From: Cristatella mucedo
Lineage: Eukaryota > Bryozoa > Phylactolaemata > Cristatellidae
Direction of reading: 5' to 3'
NCBI GenBank assembly: GCA_009760855.2
Contig: WPIO01000010.1
Span: forward strand, 5,559,501 to 5,623,500
Length of the DNA stretch: 64,000 nt
A model generated the notes under the pieces. The model was not told the DNA's origin and made no database searches. It saw only the letters and a program-made list of their open reading frames with translations. Positions 1 to 64,000 of this stretch are shown here, in pieces. Both the position numbers and the translations under genes were made by a program. Position 1 is the stretch's first letter, and each line of letters opens with the position of its first letter.

Positions 1-479
1 TTCTTCAATTTTAGGAAGTATGTGACCAAATTTTGCTTATGCCGCAGTATGACTTACGTTTGAATAAGGGTTTCGGTATTACAAATACTACATACGTGAC
101 GTACGCAATAATTTTACTTACGTTAATTATTTCGTATGGACCGCTGAATTAATTTTCAAATCACTCAACACTGTGCAGCCTTGACGCGTTGGTTATGGCC
201 AAAGCCTATTCAAAAGAAATAGGGTCTTGACAGTTGAGCTTAATGCGGGATCATAATTTAATTTTGCTAACGTAATCTGCTAGGAAAATTGGTCGTTAGC
301 TTAAAGCGAATATAATTTTGCAAGTAGCTGCCCGAAGGGCACAATATGCAGCGGTGTTTGCATCGTCGCTAAGTAAAGTAGTCTTACTAAAGAAAATTAA
401 TGCGACTTTCACTTCATTCACAGCTTTTCGTTCACTTTAAGAAGAGCGAAGCGTAATATCCAAATAAAAAATGGAGCAT
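1..479. other. No gene recognised
   Basis: I see no long ORF, signal-peptide exon, RNA gene or repeat that I recognise in this stretch. Confidence 0.4.
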
Positions 480-600
480 CGCCCATTATTTTTCACACCC
501 ATGGTGGTAGCCAAGGTGTAAGGGGCCTGCTCTTCACTACCCAGGTCATGGTTTCGAGTTATACACTAGTCGGTGTGTCGTTGATTATTGCAAGCGGCGG
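480..600 (+). repeat. tRNA-headed SINE-like copy
   Basis: A box-A-like TGGTAGCCAAGG and a degenerate box-B-like GGTTTCGAGTT sit about 35 nt apart, followed by the AAGCGGCGGTGA stretch found in other SINE copies of this window. It is degenerate and not a functional tRNA. Confidence 0.4.
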
Positions 601-604
601 TGAC

Positions 605-1080
605 AACAATGAATAATAGTAATAATAATACAATTAATAAAGCACCCTCAGAGAACTCAATATATCTTTCTAGGCGCTTTACATTTGCCGCAAATAAAAC
701 ATGACGGGATGGTGAGCGGTATCATGCTTGATACCACATGGTTAGGGGTGAAATGCACAGGGTCAGCATTCAAGAATGTTCAGTGCCAGCATGCACAGTG
801 TCAGCACGCATAAGCACTTAACCGAAGAATCACAAGGACCACTAAATACTGTTATAAATAGGTGAGTTTTCAATTTCTTTTCAAATATGGTCAATTCAAG
901 GGATGTCGTGACGCAAGTCGGGATTTAGTTCCAGGCTTTGGGAGCATACGAACTAAAATCACGGTCTCCAAAGGATTTGAGGTTTGTACAAGGCATAGGT
1001 AAAAAGTTAGTTTCCGAAAACGCTTGGTACGATCCTTAGCCTGGTGGGCGAGTAAATCTGACGAATGCTCGCCTGCCACT
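605..1080 (-). repeat. LINE-A 3' fragment
   Basis: On the minus strand this matches the 3' end of the LINE copy at 37,355-39,580. It ends in the same GAGAGATT..GTTCTCTGAGGGTGCTTTATT block and a (TTA)n tail, seen here as AATAATAATA at the left edge. It keeps the C-terminal ORF2 region in broken form (the antisense of GCTCCCAAAGCCTGGAA). It is 5'-truncated. Confidence 0.8.
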
Positions 1081-1249
1081 ATATTAAAGAGGTTTCAAAT
1101 CAGCCCTCGCTTTTTGAGTCTGATTGAAGTGGATGTGCATTCATGTAGTGTTTAATTCTACTCAAACCGATTTGCACGATAAAGCGATTGTTCAAAACCT
1201 TGAAATCTGATGCGCGAATTTGAACCATCGATTAGTAAAGTACTCAATG

Positions 1250-2830
1250 AAATTAAATTCAAGATTCTTGCTGCCGTTTTATGGTGGGTTGAGGTGGGTT
1301 TACCGTGGATTGTCGCGTCGCGGAATTAGACGGTTATGTGGGCCACAGCACGGAACTGCATGAGATTGCATTTCCGTGATGTTAAGAAATTTCGCGATTG
1401 CACTGCAAAACAAGCAGAGTGCAATGTGCAATTAAAATTTAAGCTTTTACGCGTTCGCTTTCTGCTAAATTTGTGGTGGATTGTGTAGGGCGGTGGTAAA
1501 TTGCATTACCTAGCTGCGCAATAGAGTTTGATTGGAATGCATTGTGTGAGAAGGCGCATACTAAATTTCATATACGCTCAAAGGATGCCTATTTCTTTGT
1601 GTCAAGCCAATAGAAACTGGAGTTTCGAGTAGCCTACTTCTGTTGGGTCTGTTTTTAAAAACAGTTCAGGCCATTGAGCAGCATGAACGCAGTCTACTGC
1701 AAAAGAACGTGCACGTGCGACGCGGGCAGTTTTTTGATGCAGCTTAAACAGAGTTTCCTGAGATACGCAATCAAGACTGGAGCTTCAGACGTCCGATATC
1801 TGATCGATCTGAGAGGCGGTTTGCACTATCGACAGAGGCGGCAGCCACCAATAGCCACCAACCAAAACATTAATTATATTGCAATGCGGTTTCTCTACAT
1901 CACGGAATTTAGACTTTGCACTTTAAAATAGCTTTCTGTGTTGTGCATTAAAAATTAGAACTTTGATCGTACGATGAAGGTTTACGTGGATTCGACGCGG
2001 ATTAGAGTGTATTGTGGCATTGAGCCGGAAAATTTCTGTCGTTTTAAATGCGAGCAAGAGAAGTCCGTAGATAATGTCCTGTCATTTTTTGAGTACCCTG
2101 CCCACGTAAGCTAGCGAAATTGTAAATCTAAATTGGAGCTTCGTGCCCCTGATGTCTGGCTGATTTCTGGTGGGTTAGAGTGGATTTGGATAATAGCCCT
2201 GGCCGCTGAAGTGCATTGCATGAGATCGCCCGTGCCCAAGGCGCGACATTTTATGAATACTTGTTAGAATAATGTAGTACACAATCACAATCGGAGCTTT
2301 TCTTGTAGTTTTTTGGTCGCTTTGCGATGGATTTTAGAGGATCGCAGTAATTGCCGGAACCATTGCTGTCGGTTTCATTTCATTGCATAAGAAAGCTGGT
2401 GCGCAATAGCATAGAACTCGGTGCTACACTCGAATGATAGTGCAGAGTAAAGTCACTAAAATTAATTTGAGCTTCACGCAGTAGATTTGGCGTGGATTAA
2501 ATCAGAACGCCATAGACTGTGGTGGCGATGCGTGCCGTTGCAGCCCACTTGCACGAGAACCCGTGCGCAACATGGTGAATTAGTTGGTGAGTTTATCCGA
2601 CTGAAAGTGTATTATAATTTACACCATAATTTTGGAGCTTCGTGCTGCTAGTTTCCATTCGACGGTTGCCTGATTACAGAGAACCGGGCGTCACATGGCA
2701 GTTAGCAATAGTCCACCAGCGAAACTCGTCTGTAGTTATTAGACCAAAATCTCAGGAGGTAAGCTAGTCAGGTATATGCGAGGCAGGAAAAATAGTATCC
2801 ACGCAACTTTTGAATCTGTCAATCGTGTCA
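1250..2830 (+). repeat. Degenerate satellite-like repeat array
   Basis: About seven diverged units of roughly 130-190 bp follow each other. Each has a GGAGCTTCGTGC-like block, a GTGGATTAGAGTGGATT-like block and a TGCATTGCATGAGA-like block. The part from about 2,030 to 2,830 has a closely similar inverted copy at 20,880-21,600. There is no convincing coding capacity. An ORF at 1,674-1,931 is not supported by any motif. Confidence 0.6.
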
Positions 2831-5221
2831 ATTTAATACCAGGGTCAATGACAGTCCTTTGGGGAAATTTCCACGTTAGACGCCTTTTTCAGAGCCCGGC
2901 GAGGCATTTTCCTTGAGCTTTACCCGATGTAAACCTTTCGGGAAATGTATTCATAGATTGTACCATTGCCACTTAACTTTCTACTATACGCTGGTTCCCA
3001 CCCCCTGTTAAAAATGTACTCATTATACTAGTGGCAGGTGGCACTACTTCGTTCGAGTGATGCGTGGAAATTTTGAAACAGCTTGGTTTAATGAGCTTAC
3101 ACTTTGTATTGACCAATACTTGAATGATTATACTTGATCCTTGTCGCCATAAATGCACCCCGCGTGTTTAAGCAATTGGCGAGAGCTTTCATCATAGGAG
3201 GCTCGAAAAATTATGAACTGGGAAGGCCTTGGTTTTACCAGTAAATTAATTAAAAGCGGTGGTTGTTCGACGATGAGCTTACTTTGTTTCGCAGAAGAGC
3301 TTTCGCGGATCGCTGCAGGCAGTTAAGAATTGCAGAATGGTTTACCGCTTAAACCAGTGAACTGTAATATTGATAGCATTACGCCGTTTGTGTGGCACCC
3401 TAAACAATCTAAAACTCCATCAGGGCGCTATACAACTCGACTCAAAAATAAATACCTAAGAATTATTGTTACGTATGGTATGATGTTGAGAAAATTGTGC
3501 ATAAAAACAAGTAATTACACTTGGGATAAAATGCTGAGTACACAGTAAGACGCTCATAGCCACCGCTTGCTAGGGCCTCGGGCTAGTAACAGGTACTGAA
3601 TCGCTCACATGTGGGCACTAAAAGCACACAGTAATAAATTTTATGAACCCCTCTGCATTTATTTTGATAAACCTGGCACTAAAAAAAGTATCTATTTAAT
3701 AAAACTGAAGATGCTGCGTTTTTATGCGTGATGCACTTTTGCGAGCTGAATCTCAAAGGGATGCAATAAATCTCTGCGTTATTCCAAGAAATGAACTTAA
3801 AATACTGATGAATGAAATAGTGCGCTCAAACAAGACCAGTCTGTTTCGGACGACTAGCAGCAGTTAAAATTGCCCTCGTCCCAAGTTACTAATTAGTCTG
3901 TTATTATGAACATGTCTAAAATTGAGGGTATAGCTTGAAAACAGCAATTCAGTTGGCTGGTCTGTATGCTCTGTTTGGCTAGCTAGAGTGTCTTGCCAAC
4001 TGTATGGGCCAGACGTAGTCCGCTAAAGACATAGCCGTCATTCGTGTGATCTGCCAGCATAGCCTTGGCGGAACGACCATGATCCATCGCAAGCAAGAAG
4101 ACTCCCCGAGAGCAGTCAATTCGCTGCTGGAAGTGTCTCTTTCAAATACGATAATATTGTTCCTTCATCTTTTTTGTCTATCTATTGTTCTCCTTCTTTC
4201 CTTCCTCCATTCCTTCTCACCATCTATTAGCTCCTTCTCTCTTCCATTTTATCTCTATTGAAATTACGAGCCAAGGTAGTTGCGAGCACGCGAGCCATAA
4301 GTCCAACGATTAGTTACTACAGCTCTTTTAGCTGGCTTTCTGCAGTCGCTTCAAGATTTACGAAACCTTCTCAATATACAGATGATTCTCATCAGTTTGC
4401 ATTCACTTTCACTAAAAGTCTAGTGGATGATCCTGGCCTGAGCAGAGCATGGGAGACAAAGATTTTTTGCTCAGACATATTAATCACTGCTGCTCTGCTC
4501 CTTCATATCTCGCTGGTCAGTAGCAGAGGTATAATTTCAAGTTCTCAGCAAAACAAAATAAGCTTTATACATATTTTATTTTCTCAGATAACTATCGGCG
4601 ACAGCTGACTGTTATCTGCGAAACTGGAACTGGGTAATTTGCTTGTACAGACCTGTACTTTGCTGCGCCTTTTATGTTATCTAAATAAAGCAAATGAATA
4701 AGAAAATATATTTACATCGCCAACTAAATTAATCTCAAGAGCCTGATCCTATTTCAAGTGTTACTTAAATATGATGGTGATTTTAATTTACATTAACTCT
4801 ATTCCAAGAATTTCTTAAACACAAGGAAGAATAAAAGTTGGACTGATTGACTGAGTAGTAAGTGCTTCAGTCCATCGTATTACCTAGACCTACATCAAAT
4901 CAGCTCTTCTTGCCGAAGTAATTTCTCACTCCCCTACTTGGTTTAGTTTAATAGAAAGTCATACCAACTCTAATTCGTACTTTGCGCTGCATTTCATTAA
5001 AGCTCTTTAGATCTATTTCCTAAATTGAAAATTTGGCACTTCCTCAACCACAAACATTCAACAAACGACATCTTGCAAATCTTATTTTTTCCGCATTGCA
5101 ATAGCTCCAGGCTTTAGGATTTCGAAAGTTGTTTCAACAGTCAATATCCTGCTTGGCTGTGGAGTGTTATTCTTCTTTTATTTAAGGTGAGCAACTCATG
5201 TAAAAGAATTCGCAAATCGGT
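2831..5221. other. No gene recognised
   Basis: This is about 2.4 kb of ordinary composition. Short ORFs here lack motifs. The one at 4,046-4,261 owes its hydrophobic end to a C/T-rich stretch. Confidence 0.4.
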
Positions 5222-5508
5222 GAGGGAACATGTAATGTAATGTAATGTAATGTAATGTAATGTATCCCCGTCAGTAACTTCACAAAGTCATAAAGACCAT
5301 GTGGGTGTTACGCAGGATAGTTTTGTATAGCGCACTCACAGCCTAAGCGGCTTTCGGTACGCATTCGGTAGCCAACAGACTTCGTCTCACGCAACAAAGA
5401 GAAAGTGGGAAGCATAGCAGAGTTAGGAGAGCAGTTGAGGTAGTGAGTAGCATAGAAGTAGCAGTTCAGGACCGCTGAAAAAGATGCGCCATAGTCGGCA
5501 GTTGGAGA
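5222..5508 (-). repeat. LINE-B 3' end with (TTACA)n tail
   Basis: A second non-LTR family. The element's 3' end points left and finishes in a pentamer tail, visible on the plus strand as TGTAATGTAATG at about 5,231-5,263. The sequence closely matches 50,396-50,690 and 8,820-9,110. The copy stops abruptly at about 5,508, where another repeat begins. Confidence 0.75.
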
Positions 5509-5960
5509 GTGATTCTGCAGCTTGCGAGCTGTGGGCGGAGACCCTACGAGGGCTCAGACTGCTTAAGTAGCCGCAAGCTCATGAGCGGTAGAAGGGCAGA
5601 CGATGACTTGGCGGCTGACTCGGCAGTCCGGTCTAAATCCATGCATCGGCGGCATCTGCAGGGACATCCATCTACCGCAAACTGCCGCCAGCTGTCGGGC
5701 GGGTTCGTAACGAACACAGTGCGAAAGAACCTTGCATACATGGAATATAAGGGCTGCAGAAGGAGTACAGGGGGAAGGGAGGGCTCGATCCCTCGACACC
5801 GGCAGCCGTCTAGAGAGTGTAGACTGGGCTTGGCCGTCATGGTTTGGAGAATCAAACGGTTGGTGTTGGAGCCAGCAGGCTTGTTGCTCGGTCTCCTTTC
5901 CCAGCCCGACGACACGTCGCGTGGAAGGTTGTCACATGGCCGAGAAAAAACCTACGCATA
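5509..5960 (+). repeat. Dispersed repeat next to (TC)n
   Basis: Shared with 49,860-50,085. Matching blocks include GAGCTCATGA/CCGGT-like sequence followed by GGGCAGACGATGACT, TAGACTGGGCTTGGC, GTTGGAGCCAGCAG and CCCAGCCCGACGA. Both copies lie beside long (TC)n tracts and near LINE-B copies. The overlapping ORFs on both strands are shadows of the repeat. Confidence 0.55.
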
Positions 5961-5975
5961 AATACTTCTTTCGTG

Positions 5976-5978
<3 letters not shown>

Positions 5979-6061
<83 letters not shown>
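5979..6061 (+). repeat. (TC)n microsatellite
   Basis: An uninterrupted CT dinucleotide run of about 80 bp. The Ser-Leu (or Arg-Glu) ORFs across it are artefacts of the repeat. Confidence 0.97.
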
Positions 6062-6063
<2 letters not shown>

Positions 6064-8805
6064 ATTCAGAGATTGGTGGCCAATCCTAGTGCATATTCTG
6101 CTCGTTGTACTGTTCCAGTTAACAGGTGCTGCTGCCAAGTGGCTACTGCTGCTGCTGTACGCTGAGACTCGTACTACCAGGTGCGCACAAGAGGGAGCTC
6201 TAGCCCATCTACCATCGCATTTTGTTTACGTTTTGGCTAGAAGCATGCCGACGCTCGTGTAACGAAGTGTCACTAATCCTGACGAAAAGCTTGCTTCTTT
6301 TTGGCTCTGCATTCGTTTCCGCTTGGCCAGGTGCTTGCCGTTTTCAGCCATTAAATCCTAGATCTTCTCCCAAGCCTTCTATAGATCGAGAAATTCAGCT
6401 CTTACCTGACTTTTGTGCCTTGAAGCTTTTGCAAAACTGAAAATTATCAAACCTACCTGGTTTAATTGTTCAGCTCGAGTTTGGGATGTTATTCGCTGCA
6501 CAATTTCAGATTTCGGTAACTCAATAGTAGTTCTTTAGAAAATATGTCATTTACAAAAATATTCTTAGGAAAAAAACACCGAACTTTATTAATAATTAAT
6601 TATTAAAATAATAGGTCTTCTGAGTAATGACCTACGAGAACTGAACCTCTGTCTAAGTGCTCTACAATGCAGCAAGAGAAGTAAGAACCAAGGCATGACG
6701 TTCACATTATCATGCTATGACAATCAAGAAAAGCCACGCAAGATAAACAATGTATCTTGCATAGGCCATTACGTTAAAACGTAAAAGAGCTCACTCAGAG
6801 CTGCCAGTTTAGGAGCCACAGTTTCTATAAACAAACGTGCTGAGTTATGTACAGGTGAACCTGGAAAGTGTCGAGGTAAAAGAAAGACAGGTTCATTAGA
6901 ATGTTAAGAAAGCTATGCGTACTAGATGCCCTGGTCTTTTGTCGTGGATAAATGGAATTACAGTTAAATAGAATTGATGTCACGAGCCTTTGGCTGCCAT
7001 ACTCGTGTTTAAGTGAGCTCCGATTTCGGCAGTGTTTCTCGGCTGAAATCGGAGCCCAGATTACGGGAATACGTCAGTGAGGGATGCCAGATAAATCGAT
7101 CTTGAATTTGATGTCTGAAAACTTGAGGATTACAATAGCCTTTTCAATAAATATTTAAGAAGTGTGATTTTCCTTTAGCTTCGGAAAGTTAATAGCCGCC
7201 CAAAAGCGCGTGTCGTCGACGTAGGCTTTACCTGAATTAAGCGAGTCAGATTTGGAGTAAAGCCTTGAGAGGTCGAGAGATATGGAGAGCTTCGTTTCAT
7301 TAACAAGAAATGAAAGCGGGGATTCTGTTGGGAAATTTAATCGACCAGAAGGAGGTTGTATATCTTGAAAATAAGTGTGCCTATGAACTGATCCTGGTGT
7401 GCCTCATATTTTCTGGGTTCCGAGAACGGCCGGCAGCGATTTATTTCTCAAATTTGACATCTCAGACTGAGGTTGTACCCAACCCATTTTACCACTGATT
7501 AGTGACAACTAAGAGTGTTAAGATCAGCTCTAGTAGAATATAGTCTTCATTTATGTCAAATGCTTCTGAGATATCTAAGAGAACTACAGAACAGGCTCTG
7601 TCATGATCAGAATATGTTCAGACGTTGTGATAAACGCGAAACACAGCATCTTCCTTAGAAGGGTTAGCCCTAATCCAAATTAAAACCTGCTAAAAATATT
7701 TGATAAAGTGGTGTAATCTGTCTGGTTTCTGGCCACCATTTGTTTGCGTATCTGCCTGATTCGATAGCTAACTCGTGAAGCTTGGCAGAAAGATATGCTT
7801 GGCATGGATTCGAAATATCCTTATGAGCGCAAAGCTTCAACAAACATGAATGGCCGTACCAGATCGTCTGGAAACCAATGGCTGAAAAAGCTAAGCCAGT
7901 GGCCTAATATGATAAATAAACAGAAGTGCGGTACAAGGCAATCGCATCACCATTCTCTCGTAAATTGTACATCTTTAGGTACAAAATTCTCCGAATATTC
8001 ACAAACATGTCCCAGCTGTATCAAGAGCGTCGTTCCTATCTTGAGTTGCCTTGAAGTCGAGATTTCTAAAATAGCAGCCCGCTAAGTCAGCTGTATAGCA
8101 CAAGAGGGGAACGCGAAAGAATTGCCAGAAAAAATTTCTGCAGTTTCACTTCTATAACGTCACCGTCAGTGATGTTTATAATGCCAGGTCACAGCGGCCT
8201 TTGCTAATTCCGATATGCGAGAGAAACTCATTTTCCTTCGGATTAGCTTTTAGAACTATGCATTCAGTGAAGCTCTTTGCAAATCCAAGACATAATCAGA
8301 AACAATGGCAGTGGCGGTGTGCTTGAGCAGCCAGATTAAGACTGCCGAGATGTTTGTGTGTGTGTGTGTTTTCTGAATTTCAGTGGCTAGATACCGATCA
8401 TGTTATGATCAATCATAGGCTGCATGAAACCAGTCTTTAATTTTGCAGGCGGGCTAAGTCGGGCTGAGTTGAGCCAGAGGGTTTCAACTTAGCTGGATTA
8501 GCATTAGAGGCCTCGAGTCGAAAAGTTAAGAGGCACTACTCCTGGGTCAATTAGAATCATCGTACGCCATGACTGATCCGAGTTGCCTGCCACCCTCCAT
8601 CACCTTTGAATAGAATTAATTCTCACGTCTATGTATGGGGACTTTTATTCTCTAGGTATTTTTTGCTTCATTGCTGTCGCATTCTAAAACTGTCACCACG
8701 CTTAGGCGTATTAGTGCTCCACCAGCATCTCGTCGCTAGCTTTGGTTCAAACTTGCTGTGAGATTGCCACTGTGCAAGCTGTCTAGGTCGTGTACGGCTA
8801 CGGCT
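6062..8805. other. No gene recognised
   Basis: Apart from a small inverted repeat at 7,017-7,055 and a short (TG)n at about 8,353-8,369, I recognise nothing. ORFs such as 7,795-8,085 have no motif support. Confidence 0.4.
7017..7055. repeat. 11-bp inverted repeat (hairpin)
   Basis: Perfect arms GCTCCGATTTC (7,017-7,027) and GAAATCGGAGC (7,045-7,055) surround a 17-nt loop. It could be a decayed transposon end or chance. No flanking duplication is obvious. Confidence 0.6.
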
Positions 8806-9235
8806 ACGCTTATACTGTAATGTAATGTAATGTATCTCCGTCTGCAACTCCACAAAATCATAAAGACTATGTGGGCGTTACGAAGGAGAGGTTTGTATAG
8901 CGCATTCACAGCCTAAGTGGATTTCGGTACGCATTCGGTAGCCAACAGACTTCGTCTCACGCAACAAAGAGAAAGTGGGACGGATAGCAGAGTCAGGAGA
9001 GCAGTTGAGGCAGTGATCAGCATAGAAGTAGCAGCCCAGGACCGCTGAAAAGGATGTGCCATAGTCAGCAGTAGGAGAGTAGTTGTCGTTGCGTAAGAGT
9101 TGTGGAAACGAGTTCCACAGTCTAGGACCTGTAGAGCTAAAGCTTCTGTCGCCAACTGTCTTTAAGCGGAGGTATGGGACAGCCAATTTATTGTCCACAC
9201 AGGACCTGAGGGTGCGAATGAAATAATTGGCAGGG
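8806..9235 (-). repeat. LINE-B 3' fragment
   Basis: Minus-strand copy of the second LINE family, with its TGTAATGTAATGTAATGTA tail at about 8,816-8,835. On the minus strand it reads the conserved C-terminal ORF2 stretch RLKTVGDRSFSSTGPRLWNS, broken downstream. Confidence 0.8.
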
Positions 9236-10184
9236 AAAATTTCACCTGAGGGTTCGAACAGGCTGAAACTGAACGCAAACGCTGGCTGCTTTGACTCTCC
9301 CTGCTAGCATATTGCTGCTATTAGTAGGTATCTGCACTACGAGTAAGGAGCCTAGTGCGACTTCTCTTTTCGGGCTCGACAAGGATTCCCATTTCTGTGG
9401 TAATCTACAATCCAGTGACAAGATTATGCGTATCCTGCAGCTCCCTGGCATGGAGGACTCCAAAATTCATATGCATCTATCCATCCAGTGAGTTTCATAC
9501 TTCTACGGCGTCCATTCTTTCCCTTCTTGGAGAGGGTTCTTATTCTGGGCAACGTAATGTCTACGTGGCTTCTTCTGCGACGATTCTAATGCCTGTGCAA
9601 TCTGAGTAAGTGCAATTCGGTGACCATCTTGCACATGAATCTTGACCAACGTGTGTGCGGCAACGACTTGCTTCAGTGGCTAAATCGTTGTCTCGTAAAA
9701 GCAAACGCATTGGACTTCTCGTTTCGATTTACAGGAAATTAACTTTTCGCACAATTTCGAAATGGCGCCGGCATTTATATGCTCCTAAGAGGTGTCGGAC
9801 ACTGGAAGTTGTCTATCATACCTCACTTACTACCGTCTTATTTAATCCCAAGGTAGACAAGACACGATTGCTGAGATAATGCAATAATAAACTCGACATA
9901 TTTCACTCGACATCTCACGTGCAGTGATTGAGAGAAGTTTGCTCCTTCTTGGGTTGTGTAATAGCATTGATATCAAAGATAGTTTTTGATATCTAATAAG
10001 ATCAAGCCGAAGCTAAGGGCATTTGTCTGTCTCCAGTCAAGCGAAGTCTTGACTGTCTGCAAAGTTAAGGATTCTGGAAGTGCAATGAAGCCCAGCTCTT
10101 TGCTACGAGGGCTGCTGGAAAAATATGACGACGAGATAGCTGCAACATATACTTTGGTCAAGGCTTGCCGAAATCTGCCTCAAT
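9236..10184. other. No gene recognised
   Basis: Several short overlapping ORFs on both strands, none with a motif. The leucine-rich ORF at 9,291 begins with TTG, not ATG, so I do not treat it as a signal peptide. Confidence 0.35.
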
Positions 10185-10385
10185 TATTGCAATAACAACT
10201 ATAACAAGAATGCACTTGATAAAGCACCCTCAGAGAACTCAATCTCTTCCTAGGTGCTTTACATTTGCTGCAAAGGGAAACGCGATTGAATCTTGAGTAC
10301 TAATAATAAATAATAATTCTTGATAAACAAAATGAACACTTGGGTTAGGGGTGACATGCACAGGGTTAGCATGCAATCTCTGCTA
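10185..10385 (-). repeat. LINE-A 3' end fragment
   Basis: The 3'-terminal about 200 bp of LINE-A on the minus strand: AAAGCACCCTCAGAGAACTC followed by the TTTACATTTGCTGCAAAG block and GGTTAGGGGTGACATGCACA. Confidence 0.75.
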
Positions 10386-11200
10386 GAGCCTAATAAAGAG
10401 AAAGATCCCAGCTTTGACACCGACCAACTACAGTTGGATGGGTTACGCTTTTATTATTCCAGGCCAATGACACAAGGAATACAAGGAGGAAGGTACTTGA
10501 AAATTGCCGCGTGCAAGATCAGCCAAATTATGACTGCTAATATTTTCCTTATTCACCTTTTTTGAATTGTAGCAGCTAGAAATTGGCCATCTCGTAATAC
10601 TTTTTAGGCAGTATAAAAGCCAAAATCCTTCATTAGGCTGGTCACTCGAGTTGAGCTGAAGTTGAGCTGACTAATAAAGTTCGCTTTCTAATTCGGCAAA
10701 TATTTACAGGAATTTGGAGTCGCTAAAAAATTGAACCTTTAAATACTGTAAATACTGTAGTACATGATCTTATAATGTAACCGGCCATGTTTCATGTCGT
10801 TGCGCTCGCGCGTTTTCTGGAAAATGGGCTGCAAAAAATGCTAGCGATTCACCACAATCCATCACAAATCCAGAAGAATTCAGATTCGGAAAGCTCTGAA
10901 ATGTATTGCCTATTTCAGAAAATAATAGTCAAAGGTAGCCATTATGTTTTGAGCATTTTCGCGCACTATCTTGCAATTAATTCCGGTTGATTGCGGAGGT
11001 ATTGGCTGTACCGCTGCAGTCAATTGCACTGGACTGCAGGAAAAAACGTACAGAGCGGAGCAGAAGTTTCTTGCTATACTTCAACGATAGCTTAGTGTAG
11101 CGATGCGGCGGCTAAGCTGAATCAGCCAGATTGCGACTGACACTAGTTTTTTTTCGAGGTTCCTGAATTGTAATGGCAAAGACCCAATACACGAAAATCT
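10386..11200. other. No gene; possible satellite-like unit at 10,786-11,040
   Basis: No gene seen. At 10,786-11,040 the minus strand has GGATTTGTGATGGATTGTGG and neighbouring sequence resembling units of the 1,250-2,830 repeat, so this may be another diverged copy. Confidence 0.35.
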
Positions 11201-11202
11201 AT

Positions 11203-11499
11203 CTACCTTAGAGGCCGCATAACATCCGAAGTCATGATATAGGCACTCAGTAGTGCTTCCGGAGTTGGCATTAGCATTTGAGCTGGTCTGAGCTCTAGGC
11301 CACTGAGCCATTCGTGTACGTCAGGGCCTCCGTTGAACGGCTGCAATCTTCCATTGCTGTCAAAAAAGACTTCTTTACGCAACGGATACAGATTTGCTTT
11401 GTTGAGGTACGAGCGCTCTTTGTGACTGCCGTGTCCACTACCGGCGCCATACCGGCGTGCAATAGTACTGCGCATACAAGTCGCTAGCCGTAAATACAA
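11203..11499 (-). other. 98-aa open frame, unrecognised
   Basis: An ATG-initiated minus-strand frame with unbiased composition (for example FDSNGRLQPFNGG and ELRPAQMLMPTPEAL). Its C-terminal end CGGCCTCTAAG is followed by GTAG, which could be a splice donor. I do not recognise the protein and see no partner exon. It could be an exon, a retroelement gag remnant or chance. Confidence 0.2.
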
Positions 11500-11629
11500 G
11501 ATTCGGAGATCGCCGGTAGTCGTCGCGCGTCGGCTGAGAGGCTAGCACACCGCTGCGAGCATGCTGCGCTTGCGGCTTATTTCAGTGCTGAAGTTACGCC
11601 GTCGCACATTACGTTTGAACCACTACAGT

Positions 11630-11800
11630 ATGCAATCGAAGTCGGAGCGTCGCGCTGCCGATTTCTGGTGGATTTGCGGTGTTTTGCAGTGGATTAGGAT
11701 GGACTTGTGGTGTGTTATGGTGGATTAGGATGGATTGCGGTTGATTGAGGTGGCGGTGCAGTCCATTCGCATGAGAATGCGTGATTACAGCAGCATGAAA
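11630..11800 (+). repeat. Satellite-like repeat unit
   Basis: A single unit related to the 1,250-2,830 array: GTCGGAGCGTCGCGCTGC, then GTGGATTTGCGGTG, several GGTGGATTAGGATGGATT blocks and CATGAGAATGCGTG. The overlapping minus-strand ORF is a shadow. Confidence 0.5.
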
Positions 11801-12044
11801 TCGTGTGGGTACAGCATAAGAACTGTAAAACAGCATTCCCGGGCCTCGAGCCGAGCGGAATATTTAAAGTGCCCGGATTAAGATTAAATTCTCTTAGGGA
11901 TCTCTACCAATGAATTATTCATGTACAATGCATATCATACAAACTCTATACTCACGCTGTCTTTTTCTGGCCAACCGTTACTAAATTAGATCGGTTTGCC
12001 GAGGATTTGGGTAACTCTTTGCACCCGCGGCGATTCACAGAGTA

Positions 12045-12310
12045 TAGTAGCCATAATAATACGTTTGATATAGCACCCTCAGATAGCTCAATCTCTCTTT
12101 GGACACTCTACATTTGCTGCAAGCAAAGCATGATCGATGGCTAGTGGTAGGATGTTCAACTACAACAAGAATACAATTGTGAGGCGTGACATACACGAGG
12201 TCAGCATGTAAGTATGGTTATTGGCAGCACACACAGTGTCAGCACGCATAATCACGTAAGGGACGAATCACGTGAACCCACTGAATGCTGTGATTGGAGC
12301 TTCACTTGTA
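12045..12310 (-). repeat. LINE-A 3' fragment
   Basis: Minus-strand remnant of the LINE-A 3' end (TAGCACCCTCAGATAGCTCA, ACATTTGCTGCAAGCAAAGC, CAGTGTCAGCACGCATAA), ending near TGAATGCTGTGATTGG. Confidence 0.7.
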
Positions 12311-12639
12311 TCGGTCACTCATCATCACCAACGATTGCATGGCTAAGACTACTGTGTTCCCTGCCTCCTTTCTGTGTCCGCGTATGGAAAGCACTACAAC
12401 CTAGCAACAGGATTTCGTACAGTAGGAATGTAACAACTTTTGGCTAAGTAATGCTTTTAAAAAATGCATTTCGCACTCACTGGCGGCTTACTCCATTCGG
12501 GCTGCAATGCGGAACCTTGAGAATGAAAGCTATATTCGATTTGAATCGCAATAGATAACTCATTCACTGTTTGTTACTAGCATAGATGTAGCTGAAAGTT
12601 GAGCTAGGCCTATCTGACGTAAGCGTCGCAGTTGCCACA

Positions 12640-13200
12640 CCAGACCACTTTTCACCCAGCTGCCATAGCTCCGAGTCAAGCAACGCATCGACTTCAGGGT
12701 TCTGTCATTCATTTTGAGCTCCACTCATTCTTTGGCTCCAGCCTATATTTCAGATCTACTCCCCCGCCAGGCTAAGCATCGTACCACCCGCCTTTCTGAA
12801 TCCAATCATTTAAATAAACCTCGTACGAATTTCAAATCTGTTGGATACCTTGCCTTCAGTTCGTATGCTCCCAAAGCTTGCATCTCACTTTCGACTTGCT
12901 TCACGACATCCCTTGGCTTGACGAAATTCAAAATGAAGCTGAAACGCATCAATTTATCAACGCATTTAGTGGGTCCGTGTTATTCGTCAGCCGTGTGGTT
13001 AGGCATGCTGACTTGCATGCTAACACTAAAGATTTTTGCATGCATACGCTATGCATGTCACCTCAAACTATGATATGCTTGTTGTCATTAAGCATTTTAC
13101 CAATAACCATTCGATCACGTTTCCTTTACAGAAAATTATTGAGCCTACAAAGAGATAAAGTTCTCTGAGGGTACTGTACATACTTATTATTATTATTATA
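12640..13200 (+). repeat. LINE-A 3' fragment
   Basis: Plus-strand copy reading the end of ORF2 (SLAPAYISDLLPRQAKHRTTR in broken frame), then the 3' UTR and a terminal TTATTATTATTA tail at about 13,180-13,200. It is diverged. Confidence 0.8.
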
Positions 13201-13671
13201 AGTCAAAGAAAGGTATCATCCGTCAGCCGATACGACGCATCCACTTCGACAGCAAATATATTGTACACCTCACTAAATATTGAGCATTATCTATAGCTGT
13301 CACTAAAAGCGGTTCTGACTCTGGGGATAGCATGAATTCGTCTTCGAATTGCATACTACGGAGTTGATAGTGAGGCTCGGGTGAAAATCTTGAGACGATG
13401 CATCTTGAAAAGTGCTGACGCAGCAGCATTTTCCGTGGAAATCTGTGAATAACACCATAATGCTACAGCTCGGTTTCATGGTCGTTGGGCTCCCTGTGTT
13501 ATTCGGGATGTTATTCGTTATGTTGTAAGTTATGTGCTATGATCGTTTCAATAGTCTGTAGCCATTACTCACTACAGGGCACACTAAGCTACTCCGATTA
13601 ACACTGGATACAGCGTCTGAAATCTCTTGAACATCGCGACAACGTTAAACAAGAAGCTGTTACTGCATGCC
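13201..13671. other. No gene recognised
   Basis: Intergenic sequence between a LINE-A copy and the 3' end of the minus-strand peptide gene. I see nothing else in it. Confidence 0.4.
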
Positions 13672-13677
13672 TTTATT
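13672..13677 (-). terminator. Polyadenylation signal of peptide gene 2
   Basis: AATAAA on the minus strand, 36 bp beyond the stop codon at 13,713-13,715. This distance is usual for an animal mRNA 3' end. Confidence 0.75.
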
Positions 13678-13712
13678 AAAATGTTGAAGTTTGGCTCATA
13701 ATGTAACATGGA

Positions 13713-14683
13713 TTACAGTCCTCCAAGTTGGCATGCTTGCTTTGCCAGCGGAATTCCGGAGGTCCTCAAAAAGTTAATGGCATCGGAGATGCTTCTCGCC
13801 AAAAAGTCTTCATAATCTAGAACAAAACAAAGATATTTCATAATGTTGTTGAGACTTTGACCAGATTACTCTTGTCTTTAGCAGCTACGGAAGAGTATCG
13901 CACACAGGATTACCAAGCTTTACCACAACATTTCTAAACAAAAATTGCATCTATTAATGCACCTATTACAGATACTTGGATTCAGGAGTGTGGCTGTGAG
14001 ACATAGAAGAAGATGTTCATGAGTATATATCAGATGAACGTGATTTATTTGAAATAAAAACCTTCCTAGCAAAGCACTTTGTAACTGCTTTCGTATTTTA
14101 TGTTCAGCGTTGGCACAAGGCCGTTCAATCTGCTTGTTCTTTCATTTAGTTTAATCCACAGCCGTGCCTAAAGCTGTCAGTAAAAGATAATCTGCTTATC
14201 AGATGCCAGAGTTATAAATAGCACTGGCAAAGTCTAGTATAGTTACAGATAATTAACTAATTTGGACAGTCTCATTTTCGCAGCATATCTCAGACCAGAG
14301 CAGTTCTAAAGGTATTACTCTTGCAGCTTACAAAAAATATTGAGCAGCAGTAAAAATAGTTCTTTGAATTATTTCCCAATGTGCACCAAACCACTAGTTT
14401 AATGTTGTTTTCTTTTCATTGTATTTCTTTAAGTTTAGGATTATTCCACTAAAAGTGGCCGGATAGGTTACTCCAATTAAAAACGTACGTACTTACCGTC
14501 GTCGGCGACGGCGATCTAAAAGTAACAAAATAAGATTTGAAGGCTTGACTCATTGGTAAGAGCTCTCTGCCCACGCAATGATGAATGAGCAAGCCTTCGA
14601 ACCGCTGGCTCGGGCAGCAGTGAAGGAGCACTTACCGCACACATCACGCTGAATACGATGCAGATTGCTACGAGAAACTTCAT
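13713..14683 (-). CDS. Secreted single-Cys peptide gene 2, three coding exons
   Basis: Coding exons are complement(14636..14683), complement(14497..14515) and complement(13713..13816), giving 56 aa. Exon 1 encodes a clear signal peptide, MKFLVAICIVFSVMCA, and ends in phase 0 at GCG/GTAAGT. Exon 2 is a 19-nt micro-exon between TTACTTTTAG and GTAAGTACG (reading IAVADD plus one base). Exon 3 follows TTGTTCTAG and ends in TAA. All phases agree. The mature part has an acidic start (ADDDYED), then a moderately amphipathic segment with LAKQACQLGGL at the C-terminus and one Cys. An acceptor at 14,714 (CGCTTTAG/GTC) joins the coding exon to an upstream non-coding exon. The gene at 19,764-20,315 has the same layout, with identical exon 2 and exon 3 lengths. 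The role is unknown. A secreted defence or signalling peptide is an inference. Confidence 0.8.
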
Positions 14684-15568
14684 TTTGCCAACCAACGATG
14701 TATATGCGATGACCTAAAGCGAAAATCAAACTAATAATAGTAAGAAGATTTAACATTTCGCACCCGCACACTAGCAGAGCAAATATCCATCTAGATGCTC
14801 CACACGTTGCTACAAAAGAATCAACAATAACGCATCCTCCACAGAGTAGCATTTAAGGCACATAAGAAGACACTTGGTACTACTAATTAATAGGACCCCT
14901 AGTAGTTAATGTGCACTGAATCCTGCAAAAGTAAGCACGCAAAGAACACAGGTAAAAAAAGATTAGTTCACTCGGGTGAAAGGTCCGACAAAGGAGCTGT
15001 ACACCTACTTCACTGGTTCAGTATTCACACACAAATAGAATAAAGCCGTGGAATATATGGTTCACACTGAGGAGACTCTCCTTGGCTGAGGGTAGGCTAA
15101 TATTGCAATCCGTTGCTAGAGTTTGGGCTTTTAGAAAGCAATATATAATGAAGTGGGTGACGTTTAGTAACTGCCAAAAGGTACACTGAACAGTACCTCA
15201 TACAGATCTAACATACGCGATACCTCGCAATGGATATGAGAGGAATTTCTCACTTAAGGCGGAATGAGATTTATTTTGACTATTGAACCCGAACTTTTGA
15301 GATCGGGGCAAGATCTTTTTCTGCGGATTTGATAGCTGAAAATTTGAGCACTGCAAAAATCAGTGTGCATGCTACGTAAGGCCTGCAACAGAAAGCTTAA
15401 TGCAATTTTGTTTCTAGGCAGCTGGACTAGCACCTAATGCTACGACGCTCGCGAGCACAAGAATGCCTCTGAAGCTGAAGGCAGAATAAAAGAGAGTGCT
15501 GCCGGACTGAGCTATCGCTATTTGGCGAAAAATCGGATAATCGCTTTTGAGCTGCCAGAGGCGCTTAC

Positions 15569-15629
15569 CTTCGTGCTGAGGATTTCTCTGCTGCTGAAGC
15601 CTTGACCGAGCAGAGCGAACCTTTTATAG
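15569..15629 (-). promoter_or_regulatory. TATA box and non-coding first exon of peptide gene 2
   Basis: On the minus strand GCTATAAAAGG (15,619-15,629) is followed about 30 bp later by a short stretch ending CAGCACGAAG/GTAAGC, with the donor at 15,563-15,568. This fits a TATA promoter, a start near 15,595 and a short 5'-UTR exon spliced to the acceptor at 14,714. Confidence 0.65.
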
Positions 15630-16184
15630 CAGCAGCTGATGAGCACGTGGCAAGCGAGTTGTATCGGCGAGCCAGCCTGATTAACGCACACCTGCCTGCT
15701 CACGGCTCGATCTGCAGTCCAAACAGCTGAAACTGTCTCACCATTCAGTGAAGGTCACTTGATAACTGCTGTTGTGAGCTACACATTTGGCAGCTCGCTG
15801 AGCGCCCTCGCAATCGCTGCCGAGTTCAGTTCTCGCTATCAGTAGTCGAGTCCAGTGCGCTGCTCGGCATGAGCTTTGGTGAGCCCTTTCAGGTGTTGAA
15901 TGTGCGCAAAGTGGCTTGAGCTAGAATGCAGCTCTGTTAGTATGTTCGGTGCAAGCTGTGGGCGGACCTGAACAAACAGAAAATAAATGGCATATACGCT
16001 AGAGGCACGTCGTTTGTTCCGTTCACCCGCACTGAACTGATCTTCCTTTGCACGTTACTTATATGGTATTCAGTTCATGCTACTAAACAGAGGTCCTACT
16101 AACTACTGGACTTGAGTGTCTTCGTGTACATATGTTCATGCTGGTCCAAGTATGACACTCGTATGCTGTTGCATGCACGTCTTA
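15630..16184. other. No gene recognised
   Basis: Presumed upstream region of the minus-strand peptide gene. I see no further exon or repeat. Confidence 0.35.
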
Positions 16185-16430
16185 GCATGAGACCCCATGG
16201 CCGTGATAGCCCAGATGGCAAGATGCTCACTCTTCTCCAGCAAGGTAGTAGGTTCGACTCCTGCAGCTGACGATCCTGTATTGCCAACTGCAAGCAGCGG
16301 TGATAGCCGTTATTGCTCTTCTACCGCTATAAAAAATCAGGCTGCAAAATCAGCTCATATGACACCTTGCATTTCACAAGCCCTTAGTTATTGCTACTCT
16401 TACAAATAGCTGTAAAGCGCCTTTAAACCA
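16185..16430 (+). repeat. tRNA-derived SINE
   Basis: Box A-like TGATAGCCCAGATGGCAAG and box B GGTTCGACTCC stand in tRNA spacing. Then comes TGCAAGCAGCGGTGATAGCC and the body sequence CTCTTCTACCGCTAT, which is shared with the minus-strand copies at 16,600 and 22,130. Confidence 0.7.
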
Positions 16431-16562
16431 AGGTCAATATGAATTTATTTGATGACCGGGGTTATGGAGTCAAGCCTCGTGGCATACATGAAGCGCCTGA
16501 ATGGAGATTAGACTCTCTTAGGGAGCTATACAAATAAGTTAGATTTAGATTTAGATTTTAGA
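16431..16562 (+). repeat. SINE tail with TTAGAT repeats
   Basis: Contains GAAGCGCCTGAATGGAGATTAG, the tail block also seen at 18,130 and 49,140, and ends in a short TTAGATTTAGATTTAGATTT run. Confidence 0.55.
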
Positions 16563-16599
16563 AAGCGGTTTGGTTTTCTCAGGGCAATAAAAAATACTG

Positions 16600-16790
16600 G
16601 CTGTTCTAACAAACAGCCTCTTTTGTATAGAGACAGAAGAGCCTTTACGGCTATCATCACCGCTTGCTGCGGCGATAAGGAATCACCTACCCCGCAGGAT
16701 TCGAACCCATGACATCGGGACCGAGGTCATGAAAAGCATCCGTCTTGCCTAGTGTGCCATCACGGCTCACCGCACTAGACTTTAGGACTT
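16600..16790 (-). repeat. tRNA-derived SINE
   Basis: The minus strand starts GAGCCGTGATGGCACACTAG (box A region), has box B GGGTTCGAATCC, then the GCAAGCGGTGATGATAGCC body. It is closely related to the copy at 22,130-22,320. Confidence 0.75.
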
Positions 16791-17129
16791 ATTATTACTA
16801 CCATAGCAGAGGTTAGCAAAGGTTTCGGACTACTAGGCCATCTCAGGAGGTTAAGAAGGCACACTAGGTAAGAAGAAACCGCGAACACTCCTGCGGGCCG
16901 GTGGAGTGGGCGTGGTCAGACGAACAAATAAACAAAAAGCCGCAACTGACTCACAGACACGCAAGGCAATTATAGGGGTAGATATTTATCACCACAACCT
17001 GGCCATGCACTTCTGTTCATGCAAGCACCTGATATAGGTTCTAAAAAAAAAACATGGGCAACAGTTTGAACTGCAACCAGCAGTAATGAAGGGGAACAAA
17101 ACTGCGACAATTCAATTACTGTCCATTTG

Positions 17130-17230
17130 ATCGTGCTTCTTTTACAGCAAATTTAAAGTGCCTAGACAGAGACTGAGTTCTTTTCAGGGTGCTATATCAA
17201 ATGTATTATTATTATAATTATAATCATTAA
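17130..17230 (+). repeat. LINE-A 3' terminus
   Basis: GCAAATTTAAAGTGCCTAGA and GAGTTC..GGGTGCTATA, followed by a TTATTATTATAATTATAA tail. Only the last about 100 bp of the element remain. Confidence 0.65.
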
Positions 17231-18054
17231 TTAGGCCGGATCAACCTATAAATAACTAGGGTGGCTTTAAGCCCGACTGGAGTTCTAGCTAGGGACTATC
17301 TGGGATAAAGGCCGATTTTGCCGACCTCTGCGTTAACACTTTCTGGCACAAATCCATCATGGCTAAGGGCTTCCACCACTAGCCATGCGAAAAGCAAATT
17401 CGCAGCTCATACTGCGAAACGCGCGAAGCAAAATCAAGCGCAATAACAGTTAGCTCTCAACTCAAAGCAAAAAGCAGCCGAGAGTCAGCTTGTGTCTCCA
17501 AAACTCGTTAGCTGGGATGCTCGTAAGTCAAAGTACCTCAATAGTGAAGGGGGAGAATACCTTGACAACTCAATTAGGCTATGGATCCATCAATAGATTA
17601 CTAGGGGGCCGCTAGGCCGGACTGGAGCTCCAGCTAGGCCGGATCTGACCTTAAGGCCGAAGTTTACCGATCTATGTACCATAGTATCGCTTGCTGCCGC
17701 CGACTCTTGCATAGTGCTGAGATTCGCTGCATGTAGAATCTTGAATCATAATCAGTTTTATTAATTAGCAATTTTTAAGTTCGTCAGTTTTAAATTTCAA
17801 TAATTTAATCATTTAACACGCGGCTCCTTAGGTGTTATTTTACAAGCCAAATATTTTTGTCACTTGCTCTCCTGGTGGATCAAGATAAGCTTTTTAAGCT
17901 CTCTTGACCAAAGACTCCATCCAATGGAACATGCACTTCTAACGCACCGAGCCCGCGACGGAAGCTTGGCAGGGTCCCAAAACGTTAAAAGGTGCGCACG
18001 CTTGCTATCATGTGCAAAGTACCCTCTACGCTCAAATAAATAAAAATAAACGCA
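17231..18054. other. No gene recognised
   Basis: Ordinary sequence with short internal similarities around AGGCCGGA..CTAGCTAGG. No coding or RNA gene signal. Confidence 0.35.
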
Positions 18055-18200
18055 GATCTGGTTTGGCCCAACGGTTAAGGTGCTCGTCCCAATTAAGGCC
18101 TGGCCGAGGTCGTGGGCTTGAGCCCCGTGGCAAATGTCAGGCGCCTGATTAGAGATTAAGTTATCTTAGGGCAAATGAATTAATTATATTATGATATCTG
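18055..18200 (+). repeat. tRNA-derived SINE
   Basis: Box A TGGCCCAACGGTTAAGG and box B-like GGGCTTGAGCCCC, then AGGCGCCTGATTAGAGATTA and a short A/T tail. Confidence 0.65.
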
Positions 18201-19540
18201 CAGCTCCATAAAGAACGCACGCAGGTAAAATCAAACCACGGAGCGATCTAGTGCCACACTTGACTGGTCGACGATTTGAACCAACGCACCGCCTACAGCA
18301 GCAGTGTCAAGTAATAAGTTTTTAAATTTTCTTCATCAACCTAGCCCAATATTTGGCATTATTATATATGCCTTGATAGAAGAGCTTGGGCTTAAGGTAA
18401 AGGAACTTTCTTATGCTCAGTATCATGTACCTCTGGAGCTGTCGGGAATTTTATTCAATAAATCACAATGTATTTCAAATGAATTTCTGTTTGACCTGAC
18501 CCTAATTTGACCCAATGCGACCATGAGGTATTTAGGCGAACGCAATATCAAAGTCCGGTCATTTCCATTACTTTTCACGGCCGGTCTCTGCACATTCTCG
18601 GTACATACATCTCGTACCCAAGCGTTTCAGTTCCAATCATAGGAATAGAGTAGCGATAAGAAATAACTCTTAAAAGAGTCGTTTAAAAAACTTGAAACAT
18701 TAAAAAGTGGTAAACGCGAACATTTTGAACTTTGCTTAGAAACCGCCATCAGGTGTGACCCTACCAAAGGAGCCGTTAAATTAAAAAGAAATCAGTTTAG
18801 CCAATGTTTTTTTGCTTCATTCCAGGACCACAGTTGACGCATCTTTTTAAAAAAATTAACTCGTCAGTTGAATAGAATTGCACACGATTTTGGCGACGTC
18901 CAAAAAAAAACGAGTGGGGCCCACTATCAGGAACCATCGACGTAGCTCTACAGAAGCTGGTTAAGTACTACATGTCATGACTGATGCAAGCCATAATACA
19001 AAAAATATACCTTCCGCCAGGATGATAATCTCTGACTGGACGGCTACGGCTATATCGAAAAAGCGAAATCTGGACACGTGGAATGCATCTTGGACGCATT
19101 ATGGCGCCTAGCCTAAAATATGTTTCGTCTTGTACAACAAACGCTGAGACCTCGCTCGATGCGGAGATCACCAGATAGCCTTGATCTAATGCTGACTGAA
19201 GCAATTCATCCGCCCATCGAGCCATTTAATAGTGGCGAGCCTAATAAGCGCGGGTGCTAGGCTTCGGATCGCTTAAGCCGCCCCGCTGCCCTTTCCGCAC
19301 AGCGTGCCGCTGAACAGCCGATCGGGGGCGGCAGGGTATGCAGCAGGCACTACGTCATCGCGATAGTCACGCGCCGCGGGGCTTGCGGCGGTCGGACGGG
19401 AGCTCAGCGTGAATTGCCTCTCGCTAGGCTCACCAACTTCATCCGATAAGTTGACCAAGTTATCTTTTGAGAAATTCACGTAGCGTCCGTCACCTGTGTT
19501 TGGACGAAGTGTTTGCTCGGCTGGATAAGGACCGGCGCGA
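18201..19540. other. No gene recognised; upstream region of peptide gene 1
   Basis: Short ORFs without motifs. The composition becomes GC-rich at about 19,250-19,480, before the promoter of the plus-strand peptide gene. Confidence 0.35.
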
Positions 19541-19610
19541 AGAGTATTTATGGAAAGAAATCTTTCGAGTGACCAGTTCTGGAAGTTTCAGCTGCTGTTA
19601 GTGGTACGTA
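19541..19610 (+). promoter_or_regulatory. Probable promoter and first exon of peptide gene 1
   Basis: A TATA-like TATTTATGG at 19,545 is followed 25-35 bp later by a short possible exon ending CTGCTGTTAGTG/GTACGT (donor at 19,604). An acceptor TTTGTTCTAG ends at 19,733, 30 nt before the ATG. This matches the layout of the paralogous gene. The TATA match is weaker here. Confidence 0.5.
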
Positions 19611-19763
19611 GCGGTCAGCGATGCTAAGTGGCTTCATCTAGCATTAGGAGACGTCGAGATCGGCTCGAAGCATTCGCCGCGTGGCGAATGCTGAAAAAAG
19701 CGCTCGCTTCGTCCATTTTGCTATTTGTTCTAGTATCTTACGTGGATAACCGTGCGACGTACA

Positions 19764-20315
19764 ATGAAGGCCTTCTTCGTCGTATTCGCCCTGCTCCTCT
19801 GCGTCGCCGTCGCTGTGAGTGTCTGCCTGCCTGCCGCTGATTCTCACTGTGCTTAGCGGCGGCGCACGCGCGAATTCGCGGCCGCTTTGCTGAACAAGAT
19901 TCGCCGCGAAAGCCTTCCAGTCGGCTAGCGCTTCTGATTCTGACTTCCTGGAATGTGTCTCAAAGCGACAGCAATTTACTTGCAGGTTGGATACGAGCAG
20001 GATGGTAAGGCCGCAGCGCGGGCAAGTGGAATCATTCTCCCAGCGCTTTAAGTCTTCGCTCAACCTTTCCTCTCAAGCGTGTCCAGCGGCTGCCACGTGC
20101 TTTGAAAGACCGCTCGCTTTCGCCGTACGATGTTTCTCAAGTGTCAGAAACCAAACCCGCTCTCGGTCCCCTGAAGCAGTCTAAAAATCTTCTGATCTCG
20201 CTACTTTGCAGACGAGGTCGCACCAAGGCTTACCGCTCAGGAAGTACTCAACTCTATCTTGAAGTACGGAAAGATTGTCGCCAAGGCTGCCTGCGCGGCC
20301 ATCAAGCTGCTGTAA
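19764..20315 (+). CDS. Secreted single-Cys cationic peptide gene 1, three coding exons
   Basis: Coding exons are 19764..19814, 19986..20004 and 20212..20315, giving 57 aa. Exon 1 encodes the signal peptide MKAFFVVFALLLCVAVA and stops in phase 0 at GCT/GTGAGT. Exon 2 is a 19-nt micro-exon (CTTGCAG/GTTGG..GATG/GTAAGG), leaving phase 1. Exon 3 follows TTTGCAG and ends in TAA. The phases agree throughout. After an acidic pro-like stretch (GYEQDDE) comes a basic, helix-compatible segment SILKYGKIVAKAACAAIKLL with one Cys. Its Lys residues are spaced so that several fall on one face. Exon 2 (19 nt) and exon 3 (104 nt) have the same length as in the minus-strand gene at 13,713-14,683, and both share AKxAC. 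Known single-Cys helical antimicrobial peptides have this general form, but I cannot assign a family. The long minus-strand ORF across it is a shadow. Confidence 0.8.
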
Positions 20316-20361
20316 CCATCGACGGGCCCAGGTGGACTGAATGACCCGAGATACATAAATC

Positions 20362-20367
20362 AATAAA
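20362..20367 (+). terminator. Polyadenylation signal of peptide gene 1
   Basis: AATAAA 47 bp after the stop codon of the plus-strand peptide gene. A CATAAAT lies just upstream. Confidence 0.7.
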
Positions 20368-63300: not shown

Positions 63301-64000
63301 GCCTTATATCATCGGATATGTTTGGTTTAGTATATCAAATCAGCCGTTTCTCACAGACGCAACTATTTTAGCACAATTCTTGCTTGACTAACCCTGGAAT
63401 GCCTCTGGGCTCGGTGTGTCCACCAGACTTGATCTACTAGGCTCGATTATACCTTGACTTGCTTGTGCAATAGGTTGTGTATGTATGTAAGGTAGGTTGA
63501 CCGTGCCTTAGGCCTTCCTTTCCATCTGACGGTGAAAGTAGTTGCCAATATTGTGGTCAAGAAGAGATCTACTGTTCATGGCACTGAATAGCTGGCAACT
63601 AGCTTGCCTTTGACTGCTTTTTGCTCAGCATATGACGACGGTATGCAGAATCCCTAGTTTTGTCATGTGAAACAGGCAGTGGGGTCCCCCCATCAGAGAT
63701 AATACCTTGCTTTCCTGCAAGTGTCTGTGCCCCTAGGCTCACTGATGTTTTTGCTGTTATACTGCTCTCCTCCCCCTAGATCGTGTAGTTTACGTGTGTC
63801 ACAGTTGCACCAGTTGGTAGGCTATGACTCGGTGCTGACTTAGCAGAAGTATTATCCCAAAAGTATCTGAGAATCAAAAAGGATCATGCTTTTATTTTTG
63901 CATTCGATTGTACCCGACTGCACATGTCTGGCTCGACAGGGGGATGTTACTTGCCCTCACTGCCATACAATCCTTCTTATTTGCTCAGCCCTTATTGTTC
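63301..64000. other. No gene recognised
   Basis: May include the 5' region of the minus-strand LINE-A copy. I see no ORF1-like protein or other feature. Confidence 0.35.

Follow-up and report, generated by a model that had tools for sequence, protein, structure and literature searches.

A clustered family of small secreted single-cysteine peptides with a 19-nt micro-exon in the bryozoan Cristatella mucedo

Two divergently oriented genes for short secreted peptides, here called gene A (minus strand, 56 amino acids) and gene B (plus strand, 57 amino acids), lie in a 64,000-nucleotide (nt) window of the Cristatella mucedo genome, C11:5559501-5623500, where C11 is contig WPIO01000010.1 of the 572-Mb assembly. 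We find that both belong to a clustered gene family built on one exon plan, and we discuss helical defence-type peptides as the probable products. A first-pass annotation of the window had described two genes in which a signal-peptide exon stops in phase 0 and is followed by a 19-nt micro-exon, a last exon of 104 nt and an AATAAA signal, and our reading of the exons confirmed this plan for both (Table 1). When scored against typical animal splice sites, 11 of the 12 sites in the two models fall among the best 4% of the GT or AG sites that the window contains. The donor of the 5′ untranslated region (UTR) exon falls in the top 0.13% of GT sites in gene A (after 15569) and the top 2.8% in gene B (after 19603); the exon-2 acceptor of gene B is unremarkable, being among the best 9.6% of AG sites. 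In both genes the donor follows a TATA-like box, an arrangement that fits a short 5′-UTR exon. The GC content at third codon positions is 0.60 in gene A and 0.72 in gene B, in a region of approximately 43–48% GC. GATA and E-box matches, which may be due to chance, occur upstream of both genes.

Table 1. Positions in the window of the parts of genes A and B and of the duplicated segment that carries them (CDS, coding sequence).
Feature	Position	Strand	Remarks
Gene A AATAAA	13672..13677	-	35 nt past stop
Gene A last-exon CDS	13713..13816	-	104 nt including stop; codes acidic end, Arg, segment SISDAINFLRTSGIPLAKQACQLGGL
Gene A 19-nt micro-exon	14497..14515	-	
Gene A exon 2	14636..14713	-	30-nt leader and 48-nt signal-peptide CDS; ATG 14683; phase 0 end
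Gene A 5′-UTR exon	15569..15600	-	3′ end is a strong donor; 5′ end inferred from TATA box
Gene A TATA-like box TATAAAAGG	15620..15628	-	from sequence
Gene B TATA-like box TATTTAT	19545..19551	+	
Gene B 5′-UTR exon	19575..19603	+	end is a moderate donor, start inferred; weak evidence
Gene B exon 2	19734..19814	+	30-nt leader and 51-nt signal-peptide CDS; ATG 19764; phase 0 end
Gene B 19-nt micro-exon	19986..20004	+	
Gene B last-exon CDS	20212..20315	+	104 nt including stop; codes acidic end, Arg, segment LTAQEVLNSILKYGKIVAKAACAAIKLL
Gene B AATAAA	20362..20367	+	46 nt past stop
Downstream copy of ~22.5-kb segment, in-window part	1..20329		whole copy C11:5557275-5579829

The two genes had been proposed to descend from an old duplication and to have been kept as working genes. 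A lack of homologues elsewhere in the genome would have counted against this, and such a lack does not hold: six further copies were found on the contig. In genome searches with A and B as queries, the counts of which are lower bounds, gene B (E ≤ 0.001) matched at least four last exons (B twice, D and E), and gene A (E ≤ 10) gave at least six matches, of which two were to signal exons and four to last exons (two each of A and C). On C11, the stretch from 5.49 to 5.58 Mb contains all of these matches. Close reading of the window together with 140 kb upstream of it (203.5 kb, 5 kb of which is N) revealed eight last exons whose scores greatly exceed those of shuffled queries: two each of B (+), A (-) and C (+), and one each of D (-) and E (-). 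No ninth last exon was present in the readable part of this region. The eight genes thus counted lie within 88 kb and encode five distinct peptides, A to E. A candidate third copy at window positions 63895-63984 (-), with a score of 46 against the last exon of gene A, was rejected as a chance match; it has no convincing splice site, and in each of two sets of 60 shuffled queries (A and B) one did equally well.

Gene models for the cluster were obtained with a scan anchored on the last-exon motif A[KR]xAC, to which copies without the motif are invisible, and in which the middle exon was free to range from 8 to 39 nt. One model was picked for each gene, setting aside lower-scoring models, nested alternative acceptors and a start-codon tie in gene C. 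The best model contains a 19-nt micro-exon in all eight genes. Because 19 nt is not a multiple of three, skipping this exon would put the last exon of all copies out of frame, and the peptide can be made only if the micro-exon is included. The coding part of the signal exon measures 48 nt in A, 57 nt in C and 51 nt in B, D and E; the last exon measures 104 nt, except in C, where it measures 95 nt. The equal leaders of A and B (30 nt each) were considered as a further family mark and discarded, those of E, D and C being 28, 34 and 76 nt long. A TATA-like box followed by a donor was not found upstream of C, D or E with the simple patterns that had located them in A and B.

To ask how the copies have evolved, non-synonymous and synonymous divergence (dN and dS) was estimated by the Nei-Gojobori method for four of the ten pairs that the five distinct peptides can form. 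Pair B-D gave dN 0.14 and dS 0.95 (Fisher p 2e-7), B-E dN 0.20 and dS 0.74 (p 6e-4), and D-E dN 0.23 and dS 0.79 (p 5e-4), the tests comparing synonymous with non-synonymous changes as rounded counts. For A-C, dN was 0.33 and dS 1.84, which is near saturation, and outside a conserved C-terminal block dS is saturated. With dN/dS at approximately 0.15–0.29 across them, these four pairs are under purifying selection. The family copies are working genes, or were so until recently, and the proposal of one family derived from an old duplication and maintained in function is borne out by the eight genes, the five peptides and this constraint.

These results bear on the possibility that A and B are not genes at all, only chance open frames flanked by splice-like sites. 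The window was scanned for a signal-peptide exon, an exon of 9–45 nt and a last exon with AATAAA, with thresholds lowered to admit gene B. This stricter scan gave six chains from three ATGs, with scores of 18.9 for gene A and 14.5 for gene B; the other four chains reuse exon pieces of these two. Dinucleotide shuffling, repeated 100 times, produced 0.02 chains on average; the best of these, at 14.8, lies above gene B and below gene A. Since gene B passes the stricter scan only by virtue of the lowered thresholds, a looser scan provides the fairer figure. It returned 24 chains in the window, three of which have the 19-nt and 104-nt exons (A, B and a by-product of B); the 60 shuffles yielded 222 chains, none with this exon pair (0/222). 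Sequence similarity between the two genes is weak when taken alone: 1–2% of 5000 shuffles match the mature parts as well, the whole-locus DNA scores 24 against a shuffle mean of 23 and maximum of 30, and the coding sequences alone score 28 against a shuffle maximum of 25 (500 shuffles). Their homology is settled by the exon plan and the six more gene copies on the contig. An origin by chance can thus draw on this weak similarity, on the ordinary exon-2 acceptor of gene B and on the 1 shuffle in 100 with a chain outscoring that gene; against it stand the absence of the exon pair from all shuffle chains and the eight copies that share one plan under purifying selection. Its probability appears negligible, and we regard it as already refuted in practice.

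Part of the cluster has recently been duplicated. The segment of which the window holds the downstream copy has an upstream twin at C11:5531836-5554234, approximately 25.4 kb away, and carries C (+), A (-) and B (+); the coding part of gene C ends 281 bases before the window starts. The copies differ by 14 mismatches in approximately 22.35 kb aligned, plus gaps, and their coding sequences by 0 bases in A, 1 in B and 0 in C. An assembly error, which so few mismatches would fit, was considered and rejected. A real duplication is favoured because the copies diverge 14 nt past the stop codon of gene B into different 3′ UTRs, each with its own AATAAA, and different flanking sequence. We infer that the duplication arose by unequal exchange within the cluster. 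A tandem-repeat-like block (C11:5555426-5555903) lies in the spacer between the duplicated units, and further upstream, between genes D and E, the minus strand holds a stop-free frame of 965 codons (C11:5505473-5508367).

In all five peptides the signal peptide is followed by an acidic stretch, whose last residue is Arg, and by a segment of 26–28 residues. As cut here, the acidic stretch has a net charge of -3 to -4 and the post-Arg segment one of +1 to +3 (B +3, D and E +2, A and C +1). The first-pass annotation had named the 56-residue product as the cationic member of the pair, an assignment that the charges reverse: past its probable signal cleavage site this product has a net charge of -3 (+1 after the Arg), against 0 (+3 after the Arg) for the 57-residue product of the plus strand. 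The acidic stretch and the AKxAC motif that it had reported as common to A and B do recur, the motif as A[KR]xAC in all five peptides. Each post-Arg segment has one Cys (5/5), at position six or seven counted back from the end, and the five-way alignment is invariant at M1, K2, A17, D24, R29, G43, A47, A50, C51 and L57. Two C-terminal types can be distinguished, GIPLAKQACxLGGL in A and C and A[KR]AACAAIKxL in B, D and E. In hydrophobic moment compared with shuffles, B (p 0.001), D (p 0.002) and E (p 0.0004) are clearly amphipathic. For the last exon of gene B, AlphaFold2 predicts, from a single sequence, one helix over residues 8–32 of 33, starting three residues past the Arg, with a mean pLDDT (predicted local distance difference test) of 81.8 and a pTM (predicted template modelling score) of 0.38.

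The conserved C-terminus raises the question of whether these are peptide signals, such as pheromones or neuropeptides, that bind a receptor through this block. Between A and C, the block GIPLAKQACxLGGL is the same at 13 of 14 residues (dN 0.09, against 0.44 elsewhere), nearly constant while the remainder diverged, and both peptides are weakly cationic, as would suit a signal. The C-terminus of B, D and E is however different and cationic (AAIKxL), and processing marks are lacking: the five peptides share no dibasic site, with none at all in A, B and C, a KR pair just before the last residue in D and a KK pair inside the helix in E, and none of the five ends in a Gly that could serve as amidation donor. 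We consider a signalling role rather unlikely.

Comparison with databases yielded little. Neither A nor B matched a Pfam family, and with all five peptides as queries three Pfam families were each matched by one member (E 0.05, 0.35 and 1.6). NCBIfam, scanned with A and B, gave no match. Against the PDB, B had one match at E 4.1 and its 28-residue segment none; A had five whole-sequence matches at E 9e-9 to 0.02, with no single stretch passing. By name and reading, we take the matches of A to be designed helical proteins, and because no single stretch passes we interpret them as a summing of repeats and not as kinship. A search of protein databases with A and B, which requires several shared five-residue words and may miss distant relatives of a 57-residue peptide, gave no candidate for B alone and three for an A+B alignment, none of them at E up to 10. 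None of the papers searched mentioned any of four peptide fragments from the family, and among the papers listed on micro-exons or 19-bp exons none concerned such a gene, by title or start of abstract. On this sequence evidence the family reads as an orphan with no convincing relative in the searches made. It is a real gene family, new to those searches and of a familiar functional kind, with a plausible biology.

The nearest systems in kind are the disulphide-linked helical antimicrobial peptides of the tunicate Halocynthia aurantium, halocidin and dicynthaurin, together with the centrocins, all three being helical peptides joined by a single disulphide (PMC8719109, PMC10608444, PMC4805251). 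Known marine antimicrobial peptides pair a short anionic propeptide with a cationic segment, and a single disulphide joins some of the helical ones (PMC10608444). Halocidin and dicynthaurin share with our family a short segment in which each chain has one Cys, as well as an LN/LxxxG-type pattern, but the Cys of the family lies elsewhere in the helix; two of the five peptides (A and B) were compared. B aligns without gaps over 17 residues of halocidin, where only 1 of 3000 shuffles did as well, or 0.3% with hydrophobic class kept; for B and dicynthaurin the fractions were 1.5% and 2.2%. For A they were 7% and 10% with halocidin and 4.5% and 12% with dicynthaurin, at chance level or barely better. 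Amphipathic helices resemble one another by convergence. We do not claim homology to halocidin, because B resembles it but A does not. The sea urchin centrocins have a signal peptide, a pro-sequence, a cationic Cys-containing chain and a one-disulphide product (PMC4805251), the heavy and light chains being encoded in one longer precursor with pro-regions of 30 and 24 residues. Here, in contrast, each precursor of 56–57 amino acids holds one chain.

Two further comparisons concern gene structure. Schistosome micro-exon genes (MEGs) carry series of micro-exons, usually multiples of three in length, and differ from the genes described here, which have a single phase-shifting 19-nt exon and no symmetrical micro-exon series. 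Their products are small secreted proteins, with an amphipathic helix predicted for the MEG-26 family (PMC5825161). Aphid bicycle genes are a different family and offer a parallel in method only: their homology was recognised by gene structure after sequence similarity had faded (PMC9168663). Here, short and diverged secreted peptides that have almost lost their sequence similarity could be recognised as a family by their exon plan and then checked through copies in the same genome and through selection.

On balance we favour, with moderate confidence, the view that A and B are members of a small, clustered secreted-peptide family, found only in this genome so far, whose products are helical defence-type peptides. 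In the mechanism that we propose, the signal peptide would first be removed from the precursor. An acidic pro-stretch, encoded by the micro-exon together with the first part of the last exon, would hold the peptide inactive, and a cut after the conserved Arg (AR/PR) would release a helix of 26–28 residues with a net charge of +1 to +3. The released helix may act on the membranes of microbes or other targets, and two chains could be linked into a dimer through their single Cys. Were the peptides antimicrobial, they would form an additional family, marked by its single conserved Cys and by a 19-nt exon that cannot be skipped.

Several observations weigh against a defence role. A and C are not clearly amphipathic, as 0.05–0.06 and 0.12 of shuffles, respectively, have as high a hydrophobic moment, and because they are also weakly cationic (+1) they suit a membrane-killing peptide poorly. 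The predicted helix is weak evidence, coming as it does from a single sequence and for B only. None of the searches made returned a homologue of known function, and two patterns for a kappaB-like site found none in 460 nt around the promoters of A and B. The antimicrobial action suggested in the first-pass annotation is putative.

The same precursors might instead supply venom, mucus or other exocrine secretions with cytolytic peptides directed at prey, predators or competitors, outside immunity. The linear cytolytic peptides of spider venoms have an acidic pro-stretch ending in Arg followed by a helical cationic peptide, usually without Cys. The family resembles them in its signal peptide, acidic stretch, Arg and helix, and differs in having a Cys. 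Clustered duplication suits immune or exocrine use alike, but the four pairs analysed have dN/dS values well under 1, with no diversifying selection seen among them, and we judge an exocrine role unlikely.

A variant of the defence-type reading concerns the pairing of chains. In both duplicated units, which count as one arrangement, A and B are divergent neighbours, each mature part has one Cys, and their charges differ; their products could therefore form a disulphide heterodimer from head-to-head genes. Approximately 4 kb separates the 5′ ends of the two genes, and D and E are single minus-strand genes with no such neighbour among the copies found; we hold such a heterodimer to be improbable. 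As a speculation of similarly low probability, divergent neighbours would produce weakly charged GIPLAKQACxLGGL chains (A/C) and cationic A[KR]AACAAIKxL chains (B/D/E) that join through their Cys, and the obligatory, frame-setting 19-nt exon might act as an on/off point for their production. The adjacency of the two sub-types makes the choice between homodimer and heterodimer directly testable.

The remainder of the window has the content of animal DNA, with exons of a DHHC-type gene, a reverse transcriptase of a long interspersed nuclear element (LINE) and an AT-rich element at approximately 23–44 kb. The last of these (23000-44000) is virus-like and by reading resembles the Maverick/Polinton type; it has a sub-threshold match to type-B organellar or viral DNA polymerase and a borderline match to a YqaJ-type recombinase. 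Long terminal inverted repeats were not found between 21.5 and 45.5 kb. Within the element, an open frame contains 23.6 nine-base units (34956-35167) that code a Pro-Val-Val repeat, and the LINE reverse-transcriptase stretch (37647-38363) is GC-richer. The DHHC palmitoyltransferase exons lie at 54481-55059 (+; Pfam E 5.9e-15). Between genes A and B, copies of a short interspersed nuclear element resembling transfer RNA were recognised by reading at 16200-16800 and 18050-18200, and the same region contains an inverted pair, 16290-16336/16621-16667.

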